From: a virus
Virus record (IMG/VR): IMGVR_UViG_3300032753_002651
Location: 1-33,240 of that record
Direction: 5' to 3' (one strand)
Length of the DNA: 33,240 bases
Part shown: positions 4,730 through 31,322 of the stretch, piece by piece
Layout of the letters: each line of letters opens with the position of its first letter
Numbering within the stretch: position 1 is the first letter of the stretch
Notes under the pieces: model-generated
The model's database searches: none
What the model was told of the DNA's origin: nothing
The model's input: the letters and a program-made list of their open reading frames with translations, nothing else
Translations under genes and position numbers: made by a program

Positions 4730-6061
4730 ATGGATAGCAAGCCAGACACAGGCGCTTGGCCTGCCGACAATGTGCAACGCCGGGCCGTTGAGGCGCTGGT
4801 GCCCTATGCCCGCAATGCCCGGACACACAGCGATGAACAAGTGGCCCAGATCGCCGCTTCGATCAAAGAATGGGGATGGACCACACCGGTGCTGGTGGAT
4901 GAAACCGGCATGCTGATTGCCGGGCATGGCCGGGTACTGGCAGCGCGTAAACTTGGGCTTGCTGAAATCCCGGTCATGGTGGCCATCGGCTGGACCGAGG
5001 CCCAGAAGAAAGCCTATGTCCTGGCCGACAACAAGCTCACCTTGAATGGCGGATGGGACACGGATTTGCTGAAGGTGGAGCTGTCCGACATTCAGGCCAT
5101 CGGCTTCGATCTGGATCTGATCGGCTTCAGCGACACGGAACTGTCGGCATTGCTGGCGGAGGCAACCGAAGGTCTGACCGACCCGGACGAAACCCCGGAA
5201 CCACCCGCCAGCCCGGTCAGCGTGCCGGGCGATGTCTGGGTGCTGGGCAACCACCGAATCATCTGCGGCTCATCGACCGATGCCCATACGGTGGAAACGC
5301 TGTTGGGTCCGGTTAAACCGCATCTGATGGTCACCGATCCGCCTTACGGGGTGGAATACGATGCCAACTGGCGCAACGAAGCGGCCCGCCATAGCGAGGG
5401 CATGGGCAACCGGGCCATCGGTGCCGGTGCCGTTGGCCGGGTGGAGAATGACGACAAGGCGGATTGGCGCGAGGCTTGGGCATTGTTCCCCGGCGATGTG
5501 GCCTATGTCTGGCATGCTGGGGTTCATGCCGGAACGGTGGTCGATAGCTTGGTCGCCTGCAATTTTGTGATCCGGTCGCAGATCATCTGGGCCAAAAGCA
5601 ACTTTGCCATCAGCCGGGGCGATTATCATTGGCAGCACGAACCCTGCTGGTATGCGGTGCGCAAGGGCAAGAACGGCCATTACGGTGGGGATCGCAAACA
5701 GACCACCTTGTGGCAGATTCCAAAACCGCAAAAGTCGGAAACCGGCCACAGCACGCAAAAACCGGTGGAATGTATGAAGCGGCCCATCGAGAACAACAGC
5801 AGCCCCGGTCAGGCAATTTATGAGCCGTTCAGCGGCAGCGGCACCACCATCATCGCCGGAGAAATGACCGGGCGGCACATTTATGCGGTGGAACTGAACC
5901 CGGCCTATGTGGATGTGGCCGTGACCCGGTGGCAGGAGTTCACCGGCCAGCAGGCCATTCTTGAGGGCGACAGACGAACCTTTGCCGAACTGGCCGACCA
6001 GCGCGGTGGGGCTGTTCCCGAGCAGAAGGTTGAAAAACGTAATGGCAAGTCGCGGCGGTAA
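4730..6061 (+). CDS. ParB-like nuclease domain + DNA adenine/cytosine-amino methyltransferase, 443 aa
   Basis: Residues about 17-110 form a ParB/sulfiredoxin-type domain (VEALVPYARNARTHSDEQV, then ASIKEWGWTTPVLVD and GHGRVLAARKLG). Residues about 165-420 form a type II-style methyltransferase with DPPYG at 203-207 (catalytic motif IV) and FSGSGTT at 367-373 (S-adenosylmethionine binding motif I). The order IV before I marks the beta class of N6-adenine/N4-cytosine enzymes. It probably methylates phage or host DNA, giving protection from restriction or marking packaging DNA; the target sequence cannot be read from the protein. This two-domain protein is common just upstream of P27-type terminases. 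Its end overlaps the small terminase start by 20 bases. No clear ribosome site precedes the ATG. Confidence 0.9.
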   Translation: MDSKPDTGAWPADNVQRRAVEALVPYARNARTHSDEQVAQIAASIKEWGWTTPVLVDETGMLIAGHGRVLAARKLGLAEIPVMVAIGWTEAQKKAYVLADNKLTLNGGWDTDLLKVELSDIQAIGFDLDLIGFSDTELSALLAEATEGLTDPDETPEPPASPVSVPGDVWVLGNHRIICGSSTDAHTVETLLGPVKPHLMVTDPPYGVEYDANWRNEAARHSEGMGNRAIGAGAVGRVENDDKADWREAWALFPGDVAYVWHAGVHAGTVVDSLVACNFVIRSQIIWAKSNFAISRGDYHWQHEPCWYAVRKGKNGHYGGDRKQTTLWQIPKPQKSETGHSTQKPVECMKRPIENNSSPGQAIYEPFSGSGTTIIAGEMTGRHIYAVELNPAYVDVAVTRWQEFTGQQAILEGDRRTFAELADQRGGAVPEQKVEKRNGKSRR

Positions 6062-16987: not shown

Positions 16988-17094
16988 ATGGGCTGCCGCC
17001 CATGCCCGCTCAGGGACTCGTCCCTGAACCCATGATTTATTAAAAAATGAGGTTTGGAGGCCGCGCCTCCAATTGGGCTTGGGCGAAAGCCCAA
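16988..17094 (+). repeat. Multi-hairpin intergenic element, copy C
   Basis: Hairpins in order are ATGGGC-TGCC-GCCCAT (16988-17003), CAGGGA-CTCG-TCCCTG (17011-17026), TGGAGGC-CGC-GCCTCCA (17055-17071) and TTGGGC-GAAA-GCCCAA (17079-17094). Between the second and third is an AT-rich centre flanked by AACC and GGTT. The last hairpin has a GNRA-type loop. Loops TGCC and CTCG are identical to those of copy A read in its own orientation, while the stems differ by paired changes. Confidence 0.88.
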
Positions 17095-17165
17095 TAATCA
17101 CCTTCCTTTTCCAAACCATCCAATGGACGGCGCACAGCGTCGGCACCACACAGGGGGCTTTTGTC

Positions 17166-18407
17166 ATGGTTGCATCAACCGGCATTTTTAAGAAGATCGC
17201 GTTCCTTCAGGAAACCTCGTTCGGGGTGCTGCCATCGCCGACCACGGGCGGGCAATATCTGCGCCGCCAGCAATCCACTTTGGGCACCGAGGCGCAGTTC
17301 TTTAAATCCCAAGAAATCAACTTTGACCGTCAGCTTCGGGATAACCGCAAGGGCACCAAGATGGTCAAAGGCGACATGACCGGCGAACTGTCGCCCGGCA
17401 CCTATCAGCAATTCTTGATGGCCCTGCTGGGCGCTCCGGCCACCACTGCCGCTGCGACCATTACCCTGACCGATGTGACCGCTGCTGCCACTGCACCCGG
17501 CAGTTTTACGACCGTGGCAGGCAACTTCCTGACTGCCGGGTTCAAGATCGGCGACATCGTGCGCTGTTCCGGTTGGACCACCACCGGGGCCGCCAACAAT
17601 GCCCGCAATTACCGCATCAGTGCCCTGACCGCCACCATCATGACGGTGGGAACGCCTACCACCGGCGCGGCAGGCAAGCCGGAGGCGGTGGTGGCCAAGG
17701 CCGCCGGTGACAGCGTGACCATCGCGGTGGTGGGCAAAAAGGCCATGACACCGCAATCCGGTCTGTCCGACACCTCCTTCACCATTGAAAACTGGTATTC
17801 CGACAACGGCTTCTCGGAAGTCATGCTGGGCTGCAAGCCGGTCAGTTTTTCACTGAACGCTCCGTCCACCGCCATTGCCACCGGCAAGTTCTCGTTCATT
17901 GGTCAGGACATGGTGACCGGCACCAGTCAGGTGCTGGTTGCGCCCAACGCCTTGACCACCTCCGGTCTGCTGGCCGGGGTCAATGGCTCGTTGATGGTGG
18001 CCGGAACCGACTTTGCCACCATCACCGCCCTGACCTTGAACATCAACGGCAACCACACCACCGAATCCGTGGTCGGCTCCATGGCCACGCCCGGCGTGTT
18101 CCCCGGTATCTTGGACGTATCGGGCACGGTCACGGCGCTGTTCGCCGACACCATCTTCCGCGATGCCTTCATTCAAGAAACCGACTACATCGACCTTCAC
18201 GCCAAGCTGGTCACGTCGCAGGCGCTGAACTCGGATTTTATCTCGTTCAACATTCCGCGCATGAAGTTCACCTCGGCCTCCAAGTCCGACAAATCCGGGG
18301 CGATCACCGGCACCTACAACTTCCAAGGCGCATTGAATGTTGCCGGTGGGCCGGGCACGGCCACCGACATTTGCACCGTGTCCGTTCAGGATTCGCTGTT
18401 CGTCTAA
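17166..18407 (+). CDS. Phage tail tube protein, 413 aa
   Basis: The opening MVASTGIFKKIAFLQETSFGVLPSPTTGGQYLRRQ, followed by SQEINFDRQLRDNRKGTKMVKGDMTGELSPGTYQQFLMALLG, is typical of siphovirus tail tube proteins: a short arm, then the tube beta-sandwich. The rest contains repeated Thr/Ala/Gly-rich strands (MTPQSGLSDTSFTIENWYSDNGFSEVMLGCKPVSFSL) and ends in a long loop and strand (KSGAITGTYNFQGALNVAGG). GGGGG lies eight bases before ATG 17166; the in-frame start at 17073 would begin inside repeat copy C. It is large for a tube protein, suggesting an added surface domain. Confidence 0.85.
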   Translation: MVASTGIFKKIAFLQETSFGVLPSPTTGGQYLRRQQSTLGTEAQFFKSQEINFDRQLRDNRKGTKMVKGDMTGELSPGTYQQFLMALLGAPATTAAATITLTDVTAAATAPGSFTTVAGNFLTAGFKIGDIVRCSGWTTTGAANNARNYRISALTATIMTVGTPTTGAAGKPEAVVAKAAGDSVTIAVVGKKAMTPQSGLSDTSFTIENWYSDNGFSEVMLGCKPVSFSLNAPSTAIATGKFSFIGQDMVTGTSQVLVAPNALTTSGLLAGVNGSLMVAGTDFATITALTLNINGNHTTESVVGSMATPGVFPGILDVSGTVTALFADTIFRDAFIQETDYIDLHAKLVTSQALNSDFISFNIPRMKFTSASKSDKSGAITGTYNFQGALNVAGGPGTATDICTVSVQDSLFV

Positions 18408-18431: not shown

Positions 18432-18893
18432 ATGTCTCGTAAAGCTGAAACCGCCCCGGCGGCGTTCGATCTGGCGTCGGTGCGGCGCGTGGATATGGTT
18501 GAACTGATCATCAAACATCCGGTCACGGGAGCCGCCACCGATTGGATCTGGCGCATTGCCGGGCCGAGCCACAGCAAAACCGTTGAACATGCCGAAAGCA
18601 TCCAACGCCGACGTTTGGACGAGGAACGGGCCAAGGAACAGGCCCGCGTCAATGGTAAGAAGTGGAAGGCCACCGAAAAAGACCCGGACGAGATCCGGCT
18701 GGAAAACGTCAAGGGCATTGCCGCCCGTGTCATCGACTTCACACCCGTGCAGATGAATGGCACCAACATCGATTACTCCCCCGACGTTGCCCTCAAGCTG
18801 CTGGCCGATCCGGCCTATGACTGGCTGTTGGGTCAGGTCATCGAACTGATCACGGACGATCAGGCTTTTTTTCCCGTATCGGCGAAGATTTAA
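18432..18893 (+). CDS. Tail assembly chaperone (gpG-like), 153 aa
   Basis: A charged, largely helical protein with a beta N-terminal part (RRVDMVELIIKHPVTGAATDWIWRIAG), a very basic helix (RRRLDEERAKEQARVNGKKW) and the conserved-looking end DPAYDWLLGQVIELITDDQAFF. It occupies the standard place between the tail tube and tape measure genes. The last codons before the stop carry a T7 slippery run, so a share of ribosomes should continue in the -1 frame (see the 18432-19252 entry). The unshifted product would coat the tape measure during tail assembly. Confidence 0.8.
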   Translation: MSRKAETAPAAFDLASVRRVDMVELIIKHPVTGAATDWIWRIAGPSHSKTVEHAESIQRRRLDEERAKEQARVNGKKWKATEKDPDEIRLENVKGIAARVIDFTPVQMNGTNIDYSPDVALKLLADPAYDWLLGQVIELITDDQAFFPVSAKI

Positions 18894-19252
18894 TCCGCTT
18901 CGCCGAATACACCTTCTGGCTGGCCAAGCCGCAAGAGGATGGTTCCCCCTTGAAGGACCATCTTCTTGCCGGGGCGCGGCAGGGTCACGCGACGGCTTTG
19001 CATTGGCTGTCCAGTGGCCCGCCGTTACCGCCAGCGGTGGCGCATATCTGGGCGGCATTTATCAGGCTGCATAACCGGCGGGGCGGTGGTATGGGGCCTG
19101 CGCCATTGATGTGGACGGAGATTGAGGCGTTTGCCCGGCTGACCGGGGCATCGTTCGATCCGTGGGAACTGGAGCTGATCGAGGCGCTGGACAATGTCTT
19201 TGCGCGGGTGCGCAATGATGACGGGTTCGAGTTTTTTGCCGATGAGGCGTAG
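18432..19252 (+). CDS. Tail assembly chaperone fusion (gpGT-like) by -1 frameshift, 273 aa predicted
   Basis: Translation reads residues 1-147 in frame with the 18432 gene, slips one base back on T TTT TTT (18866-18872) and continues SRIGEDLIRFAEYTFWLAKP... to a stop at 19250-19252. The -1 frame is open all the way from the slip site. It has no AUG or convincing ribosome site of its own near its beginning; its first candidate start is a TTG at 18950. This is the G-T arrangement of lambda-like tails, where the T part recruits the tube protein to the tape measure-chaperone complex. Frameshifting is predicted, not shown. Confidence 0.8.
18866..18905 (+). promoter_or_regulatory. Programmed -1 ribosomal frameshift site (slippery heptamer plus hairpin)
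   Basis: The heptamer TTTTTTT (18866-18872) is in the correct X XXY YYZ phase relative to the reading frame (GCT TTT TTT). A 7-nt spacer follows, then an 8-bp perfect hairpin CGGCGAAG (18880-18887)/CTTCGCCG (18898-18905) with a 10-nt loop that carries the zero-frame TAA. Slippery run, spacing, hairpin and a stop just downstream are the full set expected of such sites. Confidence 0.85.
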
Positions 19253-19450: not shown

Positions 19451-19930
19451 TTGTATTTTCTGAAGACGAGCAAGGGTGAAATTGACTTTGGCTCGATTGA
19501 TGTCACCACGGCAGAGGCCCTTGCGATCCCGCATGGTCCCATTCGCTTGCTCAGTGGAGATAAGAAGTTCGGTCATGCCCACGTCACAGGCAACACCGAC
19601 AGAATGAGAAAGCTGTCGGGACTGGGATTCCATGATTTTTGCGTGTTTGCCGAACTTGTCGCAGAAAATTACACAGACATCGCTCCGGGAGACCCTGCTG
19701 ACAGACAGGTAATCATCCACTACCACCGGGGATACGGCCTGAGACTCATTCTCCAGCCAATTTTCGATGAAGTTGATGGCTTTTATTGGAGCATCGTCAC
19801 CGGAATTCCTGGGCGAAAATCCCAACCAGGGGGCGTGTACACCGTGCTTAGGGAGCAGCCCGCAGCCGCAACACAAGGCCCGACGGCAAATACCACCCGG
19901 CCAATCCTCACACTCAAAAAGACAACTTAA
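19451..19930 (+). CDS. Candidate phage barnase/EndoU/RelE-like (PBECR) nuclease, 159 aa
   Basis: The arrangement GPIRLLSGDKKFGHAHV (29-45), a helical stretch, FAELVAENYTDI (66-77), then GLRLILQPIF and a strand FYWSIVTGIPGRK (111-123) resembles the PBECR nuclease domains found in phage MuF proteins and stand-alone phage toxins: a G.AHI-type histidine, an EN.T.I helix end, and a Y.VVTA-type strand. His42 and His44 would be catalytic candidates. The start is TTG at 19451 with GGAG seven bases before it. Base composition is lower in GC than the tail genes on both sides, and the gene splits the usual chaperone-tape measure order, so it looks like inserted cargo. The family call is tentative, from pattern memory only. 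Confidence 0.4.
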   Translation: MYFLKTSKGEIDFGSIDVTTAEALAIPHGPIRLLSGDKKFGHAHVTGNTDRMRKLSGLGFHDFCVFAELVAENYTDIAPGDPADRQVIIHYHRGYGLRLILQPIFDEVDGFYWSIVTGIPGRKSQPGGVYTVLREQPAAATQGPTANTTRPILTLKKTT

Positions 19931-20117: not shown

Positions 20118-20747
20118 TTGCCCACCCCCATCTTCCAACGCCTTCAGGCGCGGATAGATGGCCTTGGCGATTCTGCGGTTAAGCAATTCATCGACTTCGC
20201 CGCCGAAAAACGCGACGAGGTTCTGGCGGAGGGCCGAGCCACCTCGGTGACGACCTATGTCAATGGCCGCGAGGGTGCGGCGTTGGAAACCGCCACTGTC
20301 CCCGGCGTGATCCGCTTCGAGTTCGGCTATCTGGATTATGTGATCGACGCCATCTGGGAGCTGTTGGTTCAGCAGAGTCCGTACCGGGATAAACGGGATG
20401 GAGCCAATCCTCCGACCCATTACCGGGATGAGCATTTGTTGCTGGTCAACGGACAGGAAGTGGTGCCGCCCATTCAGCAAATCCCCCGTGATGCCGAAAT
20501 CGCCTTCGTCAATGTCCAGCCCTATGCCCGCAAGATCGAAAAGGGCTTTTCGGCGCAGGCCCCGAACGGGGTTTATCAGCAGGTGGCGCGGCTGGCCAAT
20601 ACTCGGTTCGGCAATCTGGTCAGCGTGACCTACACCTGGCTGCAAATCACCGGGGCGGGTCCGTCCGGCCCGGCCTCGCGGCACAGAACACGGCGTCAAA
20701 AGGCGCAAGACGATAACTTTCCGGCCATCATTTTCAAAAGCCTTTAG
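20118..20747 (+). CDS. Tail-completion-like (HK97 gp10-type) protein, 209 aa
   Basis: The motif PYARKIEKGFSAQAPNGVYQQVARLANTRFGNLVSVTYTWLQI resembles the YA..IE.G.S..AP.G segment of HK97 gp10/neck-type proteins, which sit at the head-tail junction. The N-terminal part is helical (DGLGDSAVKQFIDFAAEKRDEVLAEGRA). In most phages that protein lies upstream of the tail terminator, so its place just before the tape measure is unusual. The start is taken as TTG 20118: a stop (20109-20111) lies just before it in frame, and AAGGA lies nine bases upstream. It is followed 11 bases later by the tape measure gene. Confidence 0.55.
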   Translation: MPTPIFQRLQARIDGLGDSAVKQFIDFAAEKRDEVLAEGRATSVTTYVNGREGAALETATVPGVIRFEFGYLDYVIDAIWELLVQQSPYRDKRDGANPPTHYRDEHLLLVNGQEVVPPIQQIPRDAEIAFVNVQPYARKIEKGFSAQAPNGVYQQVARLANTRFGNLVSVTYTWLQITGAGPSGPASRHRTRRQKAQDDNFPAIIFKSL

Positions 20748-20758
20748 GGACCAGCAGC

Positions 20759-23700
20759 ATGACCGATACGGTAGACCGGGCCATCTTGGAGGTGTCGGCG
20801 GTCACCACCGGCATTGACGAGGCCGATGCCCAGGTCTCGAAACTGGGCACCACCTTCACCGCCACCGAAACCAAACTGCGAGGCTATGGCACCAGCTTAG
20901 AGGCGGTAGTGGCCAAGATTGACCCGGTGACACGGGCCAACATGGCGCTGGAGGCCGGACAATCCCGGCTGAATGCCGCCTATGAAAGCAGCATCGCCAA
21001 AGGCATGGACGCGGCCAAGGCCAATGACCTGCTGGCAACCGGCTTGACGGCACTGACGCAGAAGCATGAGTCCGCATTGGCGCGGGCGGCAGCTTTGTCG
21101 GCGGGGTTTGGGGCGGTGGGATCGGCGGCGGGCGCATTGGGCACGGATCTGGCGGGGCTGGGAACCGCCCATGACGGGGCCGGGATGAAGGCCAATCAGA
21201 TGCGCGAGGCCATGGTCCTTGTTCACGAAATGCTGTCGGGCAATTACCGGCGGGCGGTGGGATCGGCGACCATCGAACTGCAAAACTTTGGCCTGATGCA
21301 GCCCATTGTGGGGGCGTTGATATCGCCGTTGGGATTGACCATTGGCGCATTGGCGGCGGTGACCTTGGGGCTGACGGCGGCGTTTGCCATGCATTCGTCC
21401 AGCGTCCAAGAGGTGACCGATGCCTACAAACTATCCGGTGGGGCCATTGGCTTGGGTAAATCCCAGCTTGAGGAGTTTGCCCATGCCATGGCCGATACCG
21501 GAGAGGTATCGGTGCGGGAGGCCCGCAGCATCGAAGCGGCGGTGATGAAGGCCGGGCAGGTTCCGGCGGCGGCGCTGCAAACCATCGCCGACATGGCCAA
21601 GGACTATGCCAAGGTCTTTACCGATGGCGATCTGACCAAGGCCGCCGAGGATTTGGCGAAGGCGTATCTTGACCCCACCAAATCCGCCAAAGATTTGGAT
21701 GAGCAACTGAACATCCTGACCGCCAGCCAGTTGCGCCAGATTGAGGCGATGCAGGGGGCCGGAGACAAGCTGGGGGCGTTCAATGTGCTGCAAGCCGCCT
21801 TGCGCGACCGGATCGGCGAGACGGCCAAGGATGTGGGCTATCTGGAAACCGCCTTCCGGGGCATGGCCAATGCGGTGTCCAATGCGTGGGATGCGGTGGG
21901 GAGTTGGGGCAAGAAAGGAACCTTGCAACAACAATTGGACACGCTGAAGGCCCAGAGCAGTTCGCAATCGGTGGATGCCGCCGGGAATGCCTATGACAAT
22001 GCCCCGGATAAAGCCACCTTGGACAAGATCGCCAATCTGCAAAAGCTGGTGGATGCAGAAAAAGCGGTGGCCGAAGCCGATGGCGAGATGCAGCGGCAGC
22101 AATTGGCGACCAAGAACGCCATGGACATTGCGGCCTCCCTTGATCCACAGATTGCCGCTTTGGACAAAATGAAGGGCCAGTTGGCCAGCCTGAAAGCGGT
22201 GCAGGACAACACCTATGGGGCCGCACCGGAGCAGATCAAACAGATTGAGGATGCTCAGGCAGGCTTGACCTCGGCGGTTAATTCCTATGCCACGGCGGGA
22301 CAAAAGGCGGTGCAGATGGCACAGGCGCAAGCGGCGGCCTCGTCCATGCAGACGGATCAGGCGCAAACCTATCTGACCGTCCGTCAAAAGCAAATCTCGC
22401 TGGAGGGGCAGGCTTTGCCCCAAAGCGAGAAGGATTTGCAGATGCAGGCGGCGCGGATTCAGGTGCAGGCGCAATTGTCGAAGCAGATGAACGATGCGGT
22501 GGCGGTGGCCGAACAACAGGCCAAAGCCAATACCGATCTGGCCAATGCGGCGGGCCAAGGCGATGCCGCCACCCGTAAAGTGGCCGAGGCCAATGCCATG
22601 GAGGCAGCCGAATTGCGGGGTGCGGCGGCGGTGGCGGCGGAACGGATCAAGCAGCGCAATGAGGAAGCGGATGCCATCACCCGCTACACCAATGAAACCG
22701 TCTCGGGGCTATCCAAGGCGACCCAAGCCAGCGCCGACATGGCCAATGCCATTCTGGCGGGTCACAGTGCGGTGGTGCAGGCCAAGGCCGATGCCTATGA
22801 GCGGGCGGCGGTGGAGAAGCTGGGAACCGAGGCGCTTATTGCCGGAACCCAAGCCTATAAGGACCGCATGGCGATCATGTCGGCCTATAACGCCGATCAA
22901 GCCGCCAATGACAATGCCGCCGGAGCCTCGGTCTTGCGCAGCCAGCAGGACCGGATTGCCCTGATGCAGCGTGAGATCGACCTGCAAGGCATGGCCAAAG
23001 AAAACCGCGATGCCGAACTGGCGCAGTTGCAGGCCATGAACGACATCGAGTCTGGCCGGGTGACGGTGGGACAAGATCAGGTCCAGACCTATATCAACCA
23101 GCAAGGACAGGTGGCAATTCTGTCGGACAAGCTGGATGCCATCAGGAAGCAGGAACAGCAATCGGAAGCGATCAACAAACAGGTGGCCAAAGACCTGACC
23201 AGTTTCATGTCGGATGCGCTGGATAAGGTGATGACCAGTACCGGCAACAAATGGTCGGCTCTGTGGGATTCCATGAAGGCGATGGCGCTGAAGACCCTGT
23301 CGGAGATCGCGGCAGCGGCGGCGGTCAAGACGGTCATTATGCCCGCCATTGTGGATGTGCTGGGAACGGTGGGATCGGCGGTGGGGGTGTCGTCGTCCAG
23401 TTCTGCCACCTCGACCTCGTCCTCCAGCCCGACCGGGGCCAGTCTGGGAGCGGCGACGGCGGGCGGCGGTTCTGGCGGCATGATGACCATGCTGAGTGCC
23501 GGATCGATTGGGGCGCAATTAAGCGGGATCGGCGCAGGCATCGGCACGGCCATTGACGGGTTTGGTGCTCAATATCTGGGGCTGGCCAACAGTGCCGGGG
23601 TTGGTGAGTTTGGGCCGACCCTGACCGCCAATACCGGTTTGCTGGGCAGCACCACCTTGTCGCAAGCCTTGCCGTTTATTGGGGCGGGGATCTCGGCCAT

Positions 23701-25417
23701 TTTGGATTTTACCCAAGGCAATGTGGGCGGTGGGGTTGGCACCCTTGGCGGGGCGGCTATCGGCACCATGATTATGCCCGGCATTGGAACGGCCATTGGG
23801 GCTTTGCTGGGTGGGATCATCGGCGGGATGTTTGGCGGCGGTGCGCCGCAGAATGCCAGTGGCGGCAAGTTAAGCGCCTTGGATAAATCGGGGCAATTGG
23901 TCATTACCGGGAACTCGCCGGGAGAAAACGGCGGCAGCACCTCCGGGGGCGCAGCCATGGCCACCACCTTCAATCTGGCCACCAACGAAATGATGAACGC
24001 CTACGGCCTCACCCTGCCGACCGGGTTCAACACCAACTTCATGACCAGCAGCAAATATGGCGACTGGTATGCGGGGTTCGGCGGTGGGGCGGGCGATCCC
24101 GGTTATGGGACCGGCTATAAAAAGAACCCCACTGATGTGATCAACTCCATGATGTCGGGCATGATCAAGGACAACATCCTTAAATCCTCCGATCCCTTGA
24201 TGGCGACGGCACTCAAAAACAGCACGGCCACCAGCTATCAGGATCTGGCCAACGATCTGGATTTTGTCAAATCGCTGGAGGCAACGGCGGCGGCGGCCAA
24301 AGGGGCGACGGATCAGTTGGGCAATCTGCGGCAATCGGCACAGGATGCGGTGACCAATGGCCTCAGCACCCTGACCACGGCCATGCAGAAAGCGGCCACG
24401 CTGGGGCTGTCACAGCAATGGACAGCAGCCCAAGCCCAGACCATCCGCAATCAACTGAACATGGTGGCCCCGCAGACGGCCCCGACCCAGACGGCGCAAA
24501 CTCTGGCCAATATCCAAGGCACCATTGACGGGCTGAAACAACTGAATGACGCCCTCAATCTGGGCATCAGTGCCACCGAGTTTGCCAACGCCTTGACCAA
24601 TGCCACCAATCAGGTCCGCATTCAGTACAATCAGGGCATTCAAAACCAGATTCAGGCCATCGAAGATCCGTTTGCGGCGGCCATGACCCAATTGGCCTCC
24701 GATGCCAACACCATGCGCAGCGAAGCCACCTCGGCAGGGGCCGATATGGTGGCGGTGGAACAACTCATCAACGACAAGCGGATGGCGTTGTTGCAACAAC
24801 AGGCCACCACCTTGCAAAACTGGATGACCACCCAAGCCTTGGGGTCCACATCATCCCTCAGCACGTCCGCCAAACTGTCGCTGGCTCAATCCAACTTCGC
24901 CACCGCCCTGTCGGCAGCCCAGCAATCGCCCGATCAAACGGCGGTTCAGAACCTGACCGCTGCCGCCGATGCCTTGTTGCAGGCGGGACAGGCCATGTAT
25001 GCCTCCAGCTCTCAATATGCCACGTTGGAGCAGATGACCCGGACCACCTTGACCCAGTTTGCCAAAGGGGTCGGACTGCCGGGCTTTGCCAGTGGGGGTG
25101 ATTTTGCCGGTGGGGTGCGCATTGTCGGTGAACACGGCCCGGAACTGGAATTTACCGGGCCATCGCGCATTCTGTCGCACGATCAATCCAAGGCATTGTT
25201 GGCCGGTGGCGGTGGGGATAATCAAACCGCCGCCGAAGTTCGGGCCTTGCGTCAACAGGTGGCCCAGTTGCAGCAGGCCTTGGTGGCGGTAACGGCGCAA
25301 AGCGGGGTGGCCATTCGGGATGCGGTGATGCAGGGCGTTCAGTATCAAGGGGACGCCGCCCGCGCTGCCGCTCGCTTGGCAGCGGCACCCGCTGCGGCCA
25401 AGGTGGTCCGGCGATGA
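20759..25417 (+). CDS. Tail tape measure protein, 1552 aa
   Basis: It sets the length of the tail and helps DNA entry. The N-terminal ~450 residues follow the lambda-type tape measure pattern (NYRRAVGSATIELQNFG, a hydrophobic LGLTIGALAAVTLGLTAAFA segment, EEFAHAMADTGEVS...LQTIADMAKDYA, ASQLRQIEAMQGAGDKLGAFNVLQAALRDRI). The middle is long coiled coil rich in Ala/Gln. A hydrophobic Gly-rich region follows (GVGTLGGAAIGTMIMPGIGTAIGALLGGIIGGMFGGG), likely membrane-active. The C-terminus has GFASGGDFAGGVRIVGEHGPELEFTGPSRILSHD, the closing motif of many tape measures. By the usual ~1.5 Å per residue rule a tail of roughly 230 nm would be expected. It overlaps the next gene in ATGA. Confidence 0.95.
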   Translation: MTDTVDRAILEVSAVTTGIDEADAQVSKLGTTFTATETKLRGYGTSLEAVVAKIDPVTRANMALEAGQSRLNAAYESSIAKGMDAAKANDLLATGLTALTQKHESALARAAALSAGFGAVGSAAGALGTDLAGLGTAHDGAGMKANQMREAMVLVHEMLSGNYRRAVGSATIELQNFGLMQPIVGALISPLGLTIGALAAVTLGLTAAFAMHSSSVQEVTDAYKLSGGAIGLGKSQLEEFAHAMADTGEVSVREARSIEAAVMKAGQVPAAALQTIADMAKDYAKVFTDGDLTKAAEDLAKAYLDPTKSAKDLDEQLNILTASQLRQIEAMQGAGDKLGAFNVLQAALRDRIGETAKDVGYLETAFRGMANAVSNAWDAVGSWGKKGTLQQQLDTLKAQSSSQSVDAAGNAYDNAPDKATLDKIANLQKLVDAEKAVAEADGEMQRQQLATKNAMDIAASLDPQIAALDKMKGQLASLKAVQDNTYGAAPEQIKQIEDAQAGLTSAVNSYATAGQKAVQMAQAQAAASSMQTDQAQTYLTVRQKQISLEGQALPQSEKDLQMQAARIQVQAQLSKQMNDAVAVAEQQAKANTDLANAAGQGDAATRKVAEANAMEAAELRGAAAVAAERIKQRNEEADAITRYTNETVSGLSKATQASADMANAILAGHSAVVQAKADAYERAAVEKLGTEALIAGTQAYKDRMAIMSAYNADQAANDNAAGASVLRSQQDRIALMQREIDLQGMAKENRDAELAQLQAMNDIESGRVTVGQDQVQTYINQQGQVAILSDKLDAIRKQEQQSEAINKQVAKDLTSFMSDALDKVMTSTGNKWSALWDSMKAMALKTLSEIAAAAAVKTVIMPAIVDVLGTVGSAVGVSSSSSATSTSSSSPTGASLGAATAGGGSGGMMTMLSAGSIGAQLSGIGAGIGTAIDGFGAQYLGLANSAGVGEFGPTLTANTGLLGSTTLSQALPFIGAGISAILDFTQGNVGGGVGTLGGAAIGTMIMPGIGTAIGALLGGIIGGMFGGGAPQNASGGKLSALDKSGQLVITGNSPGENGGSTSGGAAMATTFNLATNEMMNAYGLTLPTGFNTNFMTSSKYGDWYAGFGGGAGDPGYGTGYKKNPTDVINSMMSGMIKDNILKSSDPLMATALKNSTATSYQDLANDLDFVKSLEATAAAAKGATDQLGNLRQSAQDAVTNGLSTLTTAMQKAATLGLSQQWTAAQAQTIRNQLNMVAPQTAPTQTAQTLANIQGTIDGLKQLNDALNLGISATEFANALTNATNQVRIQYNQGIQNQIQAIEDPFAAAMTQLASDANTMRSEATSAGADMVAVEQLINDKRMALLQQQATTLQNWMTTQALGSTSSLSTSAKLSLAQSNFATALSAAQQSPDQTAVQNLTAAADALLQAGQAMYASSSQYATLEQMTRTTLTQFAKGVGLPGFASGGDFAGGVRIVGEHGPELEFTGPSRILSHDQSKALLAGGGGDNQTAAEVRALRQQVAQLQQALVAVTAQSGVAIRDAVMQGVQYQGDAARAAARLAAAPAAAKVVRR

Positions 25418-30692: not shown

Positions 30693-31322
30693 ATGGCCAT
30701 CGAAGCGGTGCCGCCTGCCGATGCGCAGTTGCAGGCATGGGAATATTTTTTGAAAGCCTTTGGGCAGATGGGCTGGCAAAGCCAACTGATTCTGGCCGGG
30801 TTGCTGATTACCTTGGTCTTGATCTTGGTGACCAATGTTCCCGGCCTGTGGCAGCGCCTGCGGGGCGGTGGGGACGAAGAGGTCAAAGACCGTGACGATA
30901 CGCCCCCGCCCGCCAGTGCAGGGATGATCCAGCTGGAAAGCATCGTCAATCTGACCGCCAGCATCATCGAGCGGGTGGGCAACAAGCTGGAGGCCCTGAG
31001 TGCATCGCTGGACCAGCACGCCACCTATTCCATTCAGGCCCAGACCGCCTTGCTGGAGACCATGAAATCCTTTGGTGAAACCGTGCGGGCGCACACCCAG
31101 ACGGTGATCGAAGAAAACGAAGCGATCAAAGAACTGATCAAGACCATCCACCAGCAGATGAAGGTGCTGGAGGTGCCGGTCTACGCCCAGCAAGAACGGC
31201 TGGCAGCCTTTACCAAGGCAATGGCGGGCTGTGCCGAATGCCACAAAGCCCATGCACCAGGCCGCGAGGCCCAATCCCCCGAACCGTTCAACAATGGAGA
31301 TGATGATGACAGATGGCGTTGA
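30693..31322 (+). CDS. Membrane-anchored coiled-coil protein of the lysis block, 209 aa
   Basis: One hydrophobic segment (about residues 31-50, QLILAGLLITLVLILVTNVP) is followed by RLRGGG and a charged, helical region (80-170) with coiled-coil character. The tail contains CAECH (180-184) and is rich in Asp and Arg at the end. Positive residues just after the membrane segment suggest the long part faces the cytoplasm. It sits directly before the endolysin, so a holin or holin-partner role is likely, though it has a single membrane segment and a large soluble part. AAGAAGG lies eight bases before ATG 30693. Its end overlaps the endolysin start by 17 bases. Confidence 0.6.
   Translation: MAIEAVPPADAQLQAWEYFLKAFGQMGWQSQLILAGLLITLVLILVTNVPGLWQRLRGGGDEEVKDRDDTPPPASAGMIQLESIVNLTASIIERVGNKLEALSASLDQHATYSIQAQTALLETMKSFGETVRAHTQTVIEENEAIKELIKTIHQQMKVLEVPVYAQQERLAAFTKAMAGCAECHKAHAPGREAQSPEPFNNGDDDDRWR

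Follow-up and report, generated by a model that had tools for sequence, protein, structure and literature searches.

The locus at 18432-19252 (plus strand) raises the question of whether a phage tail assembly chaperone gene gives one protein or two, since its reading frame closes shortly after a run of seven Ts while a second frame, shifted by -1, continues downstream. The virus record in which it lies is linear, has 33,240 bases, and is referred to as the window. According to the evidence set out below, the gene very probably undergoes genuine programmed -1 ribosomal frameshifting, by which one gene would give a short and a long form, and we put the probability of this reading at roughly 95%.

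The zero-frame ORF (18432-18893) encodes 153 aa, and its ATG at 18432 is preceded by AAGAGG, which resembles a ribosome-binding site. Within this ORF, the T7 run at 18866-18872 stands in the phase T_TTT_TTT relative to that ATG, as an earlier note on this DNA had claimed. The window has no other T7 run and no A7 run on either strand, and the site is one of six in-phase X_XXY_YYZ sites found among 8,347 codon positions in its larger ORFs. Inside the ORF 30693-31322, at 30746, there is a second in-phase T-run heptamer, TTTTTTG; a PHROG search with this ORF gave no match, and no sign that its heptamer is used was seen. Reporter work in E. coli showed T_TTT_TTT to be a weaker site than A_AAA_AAG (PMC5009743), which counts against the frameshift reading.

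An open -1 frame spans 18821-19252, and its first ATG, GTG or TTG is the TTG at 18950, residue 29 counted from the slip (28 codons beyond the slip site). Homology of the -1 part (18866-19252, the gpT-like domain of the predicted long form) begins at the slip site itself, and the conserved residues F1, A13, L19, D25, and G26 of this domain all precede residue 29. The conserved domain therefore cannot arise by internal initiation and is readable only through a shift of frame. Joining 18432-18872 to 18872-19252 gives 147 + 126 = 273 aa, so the earlier description of a 273-aa fusion, with a -1 frame open to 19252 and devoid of a good start of its own, holds throughout.

The assignment to the tail chaperones, also made in the earlier note, is borne out by both sequence and position. 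The -1 part matches Pfam PF23812 Phage_TAC_18 (3.5e-17). The family matches of the upstream half, the gpG-like short form, are weak (1.6e-4 and 0.0084), the former being to phrog_313, 'Tail assembly chaperone', a profile matched by all four of four close family members (best 8.7e-15). PHROG 8233, a 271-aa tail chaperone profile, is matched by the zero-frame half (P0001) at 50-128 and by the -1 half (P0002) at 162-222, indicating that both halves, in this order, make up one known protein family that is already fused in the profile. Upstream of the chaperone lie genes for terminase, portal, major head protein, head-tail adaptor, and the tail tube protein (17073-18407, plus strand; Pfam Phage_tube_2, 3.2e-30; phrog_290, 1.3e-46). 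Downstream, two ORFs (19451-19930 and 20118-20747) are followed by the tape measure gene (20759-25417, plus strand; Pfam TMP_2, 5.6e-25; phrog_24, 3.7e-31). The chaperone gene thus lies after that for the major tail protein and before that for the tape measure, as two overlapping ORFs of which the second, in the -1 frame, has no start before its conserved domain. The first of the two intervening ORFs (19451-19930) found no match in Pfam and PHROG searches. Further upstream, ahead of the terminase, the ORF 4730-6061 contains ParB-like nuclease and DNA methyltransferase regions and matches phrog_498 over most of its length (2.1e-143).

Structure models of the chaperone were built from shallow alignments of four sequences and reached pLDDT values of 75 and 66, too weak to assign a fold. 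A search of PDB structures with these models gave no significant match, and in a viral structure library the same weak models gave weak matches that included annotated tape-measure chaperones of phages Sansa, Seurat, and CcrSC. Sequence searches of the PDB returned chance matches only, and single-protein scans of viral contigs with P0001 and P0002 returned no relatives.

A close relative, here called L002, is a contig of a Rhodospirillaceae MAG whose -1 domain is 95% identical to that of the window, and it carries the same T7 run independently of the window's record. In the upstream zero-frame part, 34 of 389 bases differ between the two, 25 of these at third positions; in the downstream -1 part, the differences number 37 of 359, with 28 at third positions of the -1 frame. 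Since most changes in each part hit third positions of its own frame, both frames are under protein-level selection. The 115 nt from 18813 to 18927, which include the heptamer and the hairpin downstream of it, carry no substitution (third-position permutation p = 0.008), an invariance that does not isolate the hairpin because this block is partly coded in two frames.

The hairpin (18879-18906, plus strand) has a stem of 9 bp, formed by TCGGCGAAG (18879-18887) and CTTCGCCGA (18898-18906), and a loop of 10 nt. The zero-frame stop TAA (18891-18893) is located in this loop, as had been claimed. A perfect stem of 8 bp with a spacer of 7 nt had also been described: a strong perfect stem is indeed present, its length being 9 bp, and the spacer is 7 nt when counted to the CGGCGAAG stem and 6 nt when counted to the full 9-bp stem. 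The minimum-energy fold adds a GUAU/AUAC pairing across a bulge, which shortens the spacer to 3 nt. Folding of the region reaches -21 kcal/mol over 58 nt (z = -3.5), and none of 200 shuffles was as stable. By itself the hairpin is not rare in this record and is unremarkable there: equally stable folding is found in 14% of its 58-nt windows, and 11 perfect stems of at least 8 bp occur in it. An Rfam search of the window gave no family. The hairpin may act as a stimulator of the shift. We consider it unlikely that, in addition to an ordinary heptamer, the stop-bearing hairpin adjusts the ratio of short to long form in a lineage-specific manner, for example by acting on both termination and slippage.

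Comparison with distant homologues, proposed earlier as a check on both heptamer and hairpin, divides the two elements. The homologues were taken from phage records and genomes, and the end of the upstream ORF was inspected in each. At 40 of 45 distinct loci, the upstream ORF lies in a frame that needs a -1 shift, and 32 of these 40 have an in-phase X_XXY_YYZ no more than 75 nt from the stop (T7, TTTTTTC, TTTTTTG, AAATTTT, AAATTTC, GGGAAAC, GGGAAAG, or AAAAAAC). A further five of the 40 have N_NNT_TTT, with T_TTT in the A site only (GGATTTT, GTCTTTT, AAGTTTT, and GGCTTTT, the last twice). In the coding sequence of the same loci, in-phase X_XXY_YYZ occupies 19 of 35,119 codon positions (0.054%), from which about 0.5 loci would be expected by chance against the 32 observed. 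These loci cover phages or prophages of Alpha-, Beta-, and Gammaproteobacteria and are not fully independent of one another, which counts against the frameshift reading. Relatives thus retain an in-phase slippery site close to where the first ORF ends, conserved in kind rather than in letters across divergent phages. The sequences do not clearly point to conservation of the hairpin: folding z-scores 3' of the slip site range from about +1 to -3.4 among the homologues, with the window at the strong end, and this too weighs against the frameshift reading.

Several loci show other arrangements. A second, more distant alphaproteobacterial group (L033-L036, L038, L039, and L048), whose matches are confined to the latter part of the domain, has G_GGA_AAC as its heptamer, in many cases right at the stop codon. 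Limnohabitans phage DC31 and Curvibacter phage P26059A (L047 near 1490; L059 near 1505) have the C-terminal domain in the +1 frame and share AAC_TTT_CGA just 5' of the zero-frame stop, a sequence that may serve as a +1 slip site of the UUU_C kind. At L026 (near 1500), an order-level relative of the genome containing L003, the domain can be reached only by a +1 or -2 shift, at ACG_TTT_CTC. Three loci were uninformative: L020 and L032, looser profile hits to part of the domain, lack a clear partner upstream, and at L029 the ORF chosen for that role looks like a chance one.

The layout could also arise from slippage of RNA polymerase on the T7 run, whereby some mRNAs would contain one base fewer (or two more) and the -1 frame would be translated ordinarily. 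The site is a homopolymer, and poly-A/T runs are known to cause such slippage (PMC3711429); however, seven Ts fall short of the realignment length quoted in the same source (Tn, n > 8), and homologues with A_AAT_TTT, A_AAT_TTC, G_GGA_AAC, and G_GGA_AAG have no long homopolymer and suit tandem tRNA slippage. Homologues swap T-run, A/T, and G/A heptamers at a single position, as expected under tandem tRNA slippage but not under transcriptional slippage; this comparison favours the former and leaves polymerase slippage very improbable.

A sequencing or assembly error in the homopolymer, or decay of a single ORF, has a certain appeal because homopolymers are error-prone, and in PaMx28 (L049, near 1500) a T6 stands where close relatives have T7, which breaks the -1 relation through either a sequencing error or a real indel. 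Yet the same T7 recurs in the independent MAG contig despite many substitutions elsewhere, the two-frame layout is kept in homologues whose sites are not homopolymers, and the zero frame is still open with a conserved end; this explanation is already contradicted, and we give it next to no weight. In most public records of related phages, the downstream part appears as a gene of its own, which would be translated from an internal start or by reinitiation (TTG 18950 or later). Against this stand F1 to G26, conserved ahead of every ATG, GTG, and TTG of the -1 frame, and the single fused protein of the PHROG 8233 profile; a separate gene would also leave the conserved heptamer unexplained, and we hold it to be highly unlikely.

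Programmed ribosomal frameshifting remains the best explanation, and it needs no new biology. We infer the slippage at ribosomes, its efficiency, and the part of the hairpin from the features described above. Most ribosomes would stop at the TAA (18891-18893) and release the 153-aa short chaperone; a minority would slip by -1 with TTT and TTT in the P and A sites, moving from T_TTT_TTT to TTT_TTT_T, and would translate the -1 frame as far as 19252, yielding the 273-aa fusion. If lambda gpG/gpGT is taken as the model, coating of the tape measure protein would fall to the short form, and the C-terminal domain fused on in the long form would recruit tail-tube subunits. Within one chaperone family the heptamers change while the two-frame layout persists, which argues that slippage itself is selected.

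The example is new and unannotated but ordinary, as the strategy has been well known since phage lambda. In most related public records, the downstream part is given as a separate late-starting hypothetical ORF or is omitted, just as the earlier note had expected of gene callers. The present reading corrects the gene model of this phage and of many relatives that infect Pseudomonadota, in whose records the long chaperone is split or truncated.

Among known systems, the tail assembly chaperone (TAC) of phage Adele, described for Vandenendeviridae/Andersonviridae, uses a GTTTTT slippery motif (PMC12846349). As in the window, a poly-T -1 site lies at the end of TAC-N, and the downstream ORF is mis-annotated in public records (PMC12846349); Adele belongs to a myovirus lineage, and the likeness is one of site type and annotation. 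PMC5009743 summarises the lambda gpG/gpGT system and what it does, and cites Xu et al. 2004 for the conservation of lambda-type frameshifts; the set of Xu et al. 2004 was tested in PMC10885494. In lambda, as in the window, the chaperone ORFs overlap and precede the tape measure gene; lambda makes a short and a long product, as predicted here. Its slip site is G_GGA_AAG whereas that of the window is T_TTT_TTT, the likeness is one of layout and products, and the strong downstream hairpin with the stop in its loop sets the window apart. An annotated counterpart is found in Acinetobacter phage DMU1 (MT992243), which is distant in sequence and has its zero-frame stop 109 nt after the start of the heptamer, compared with 25 in the window. 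DMU1 shares the homologous -1 domain, has T_TTT_TTC at the aligned position, and is annotated with a joined CDS, 'tape measure chaperone gpGT'. Together with the chaperone family and the position of the gene, this gpG/gpGT homologue supports the equivalence of the predicted fusion to lambda gpGT that had been claimed for the window.
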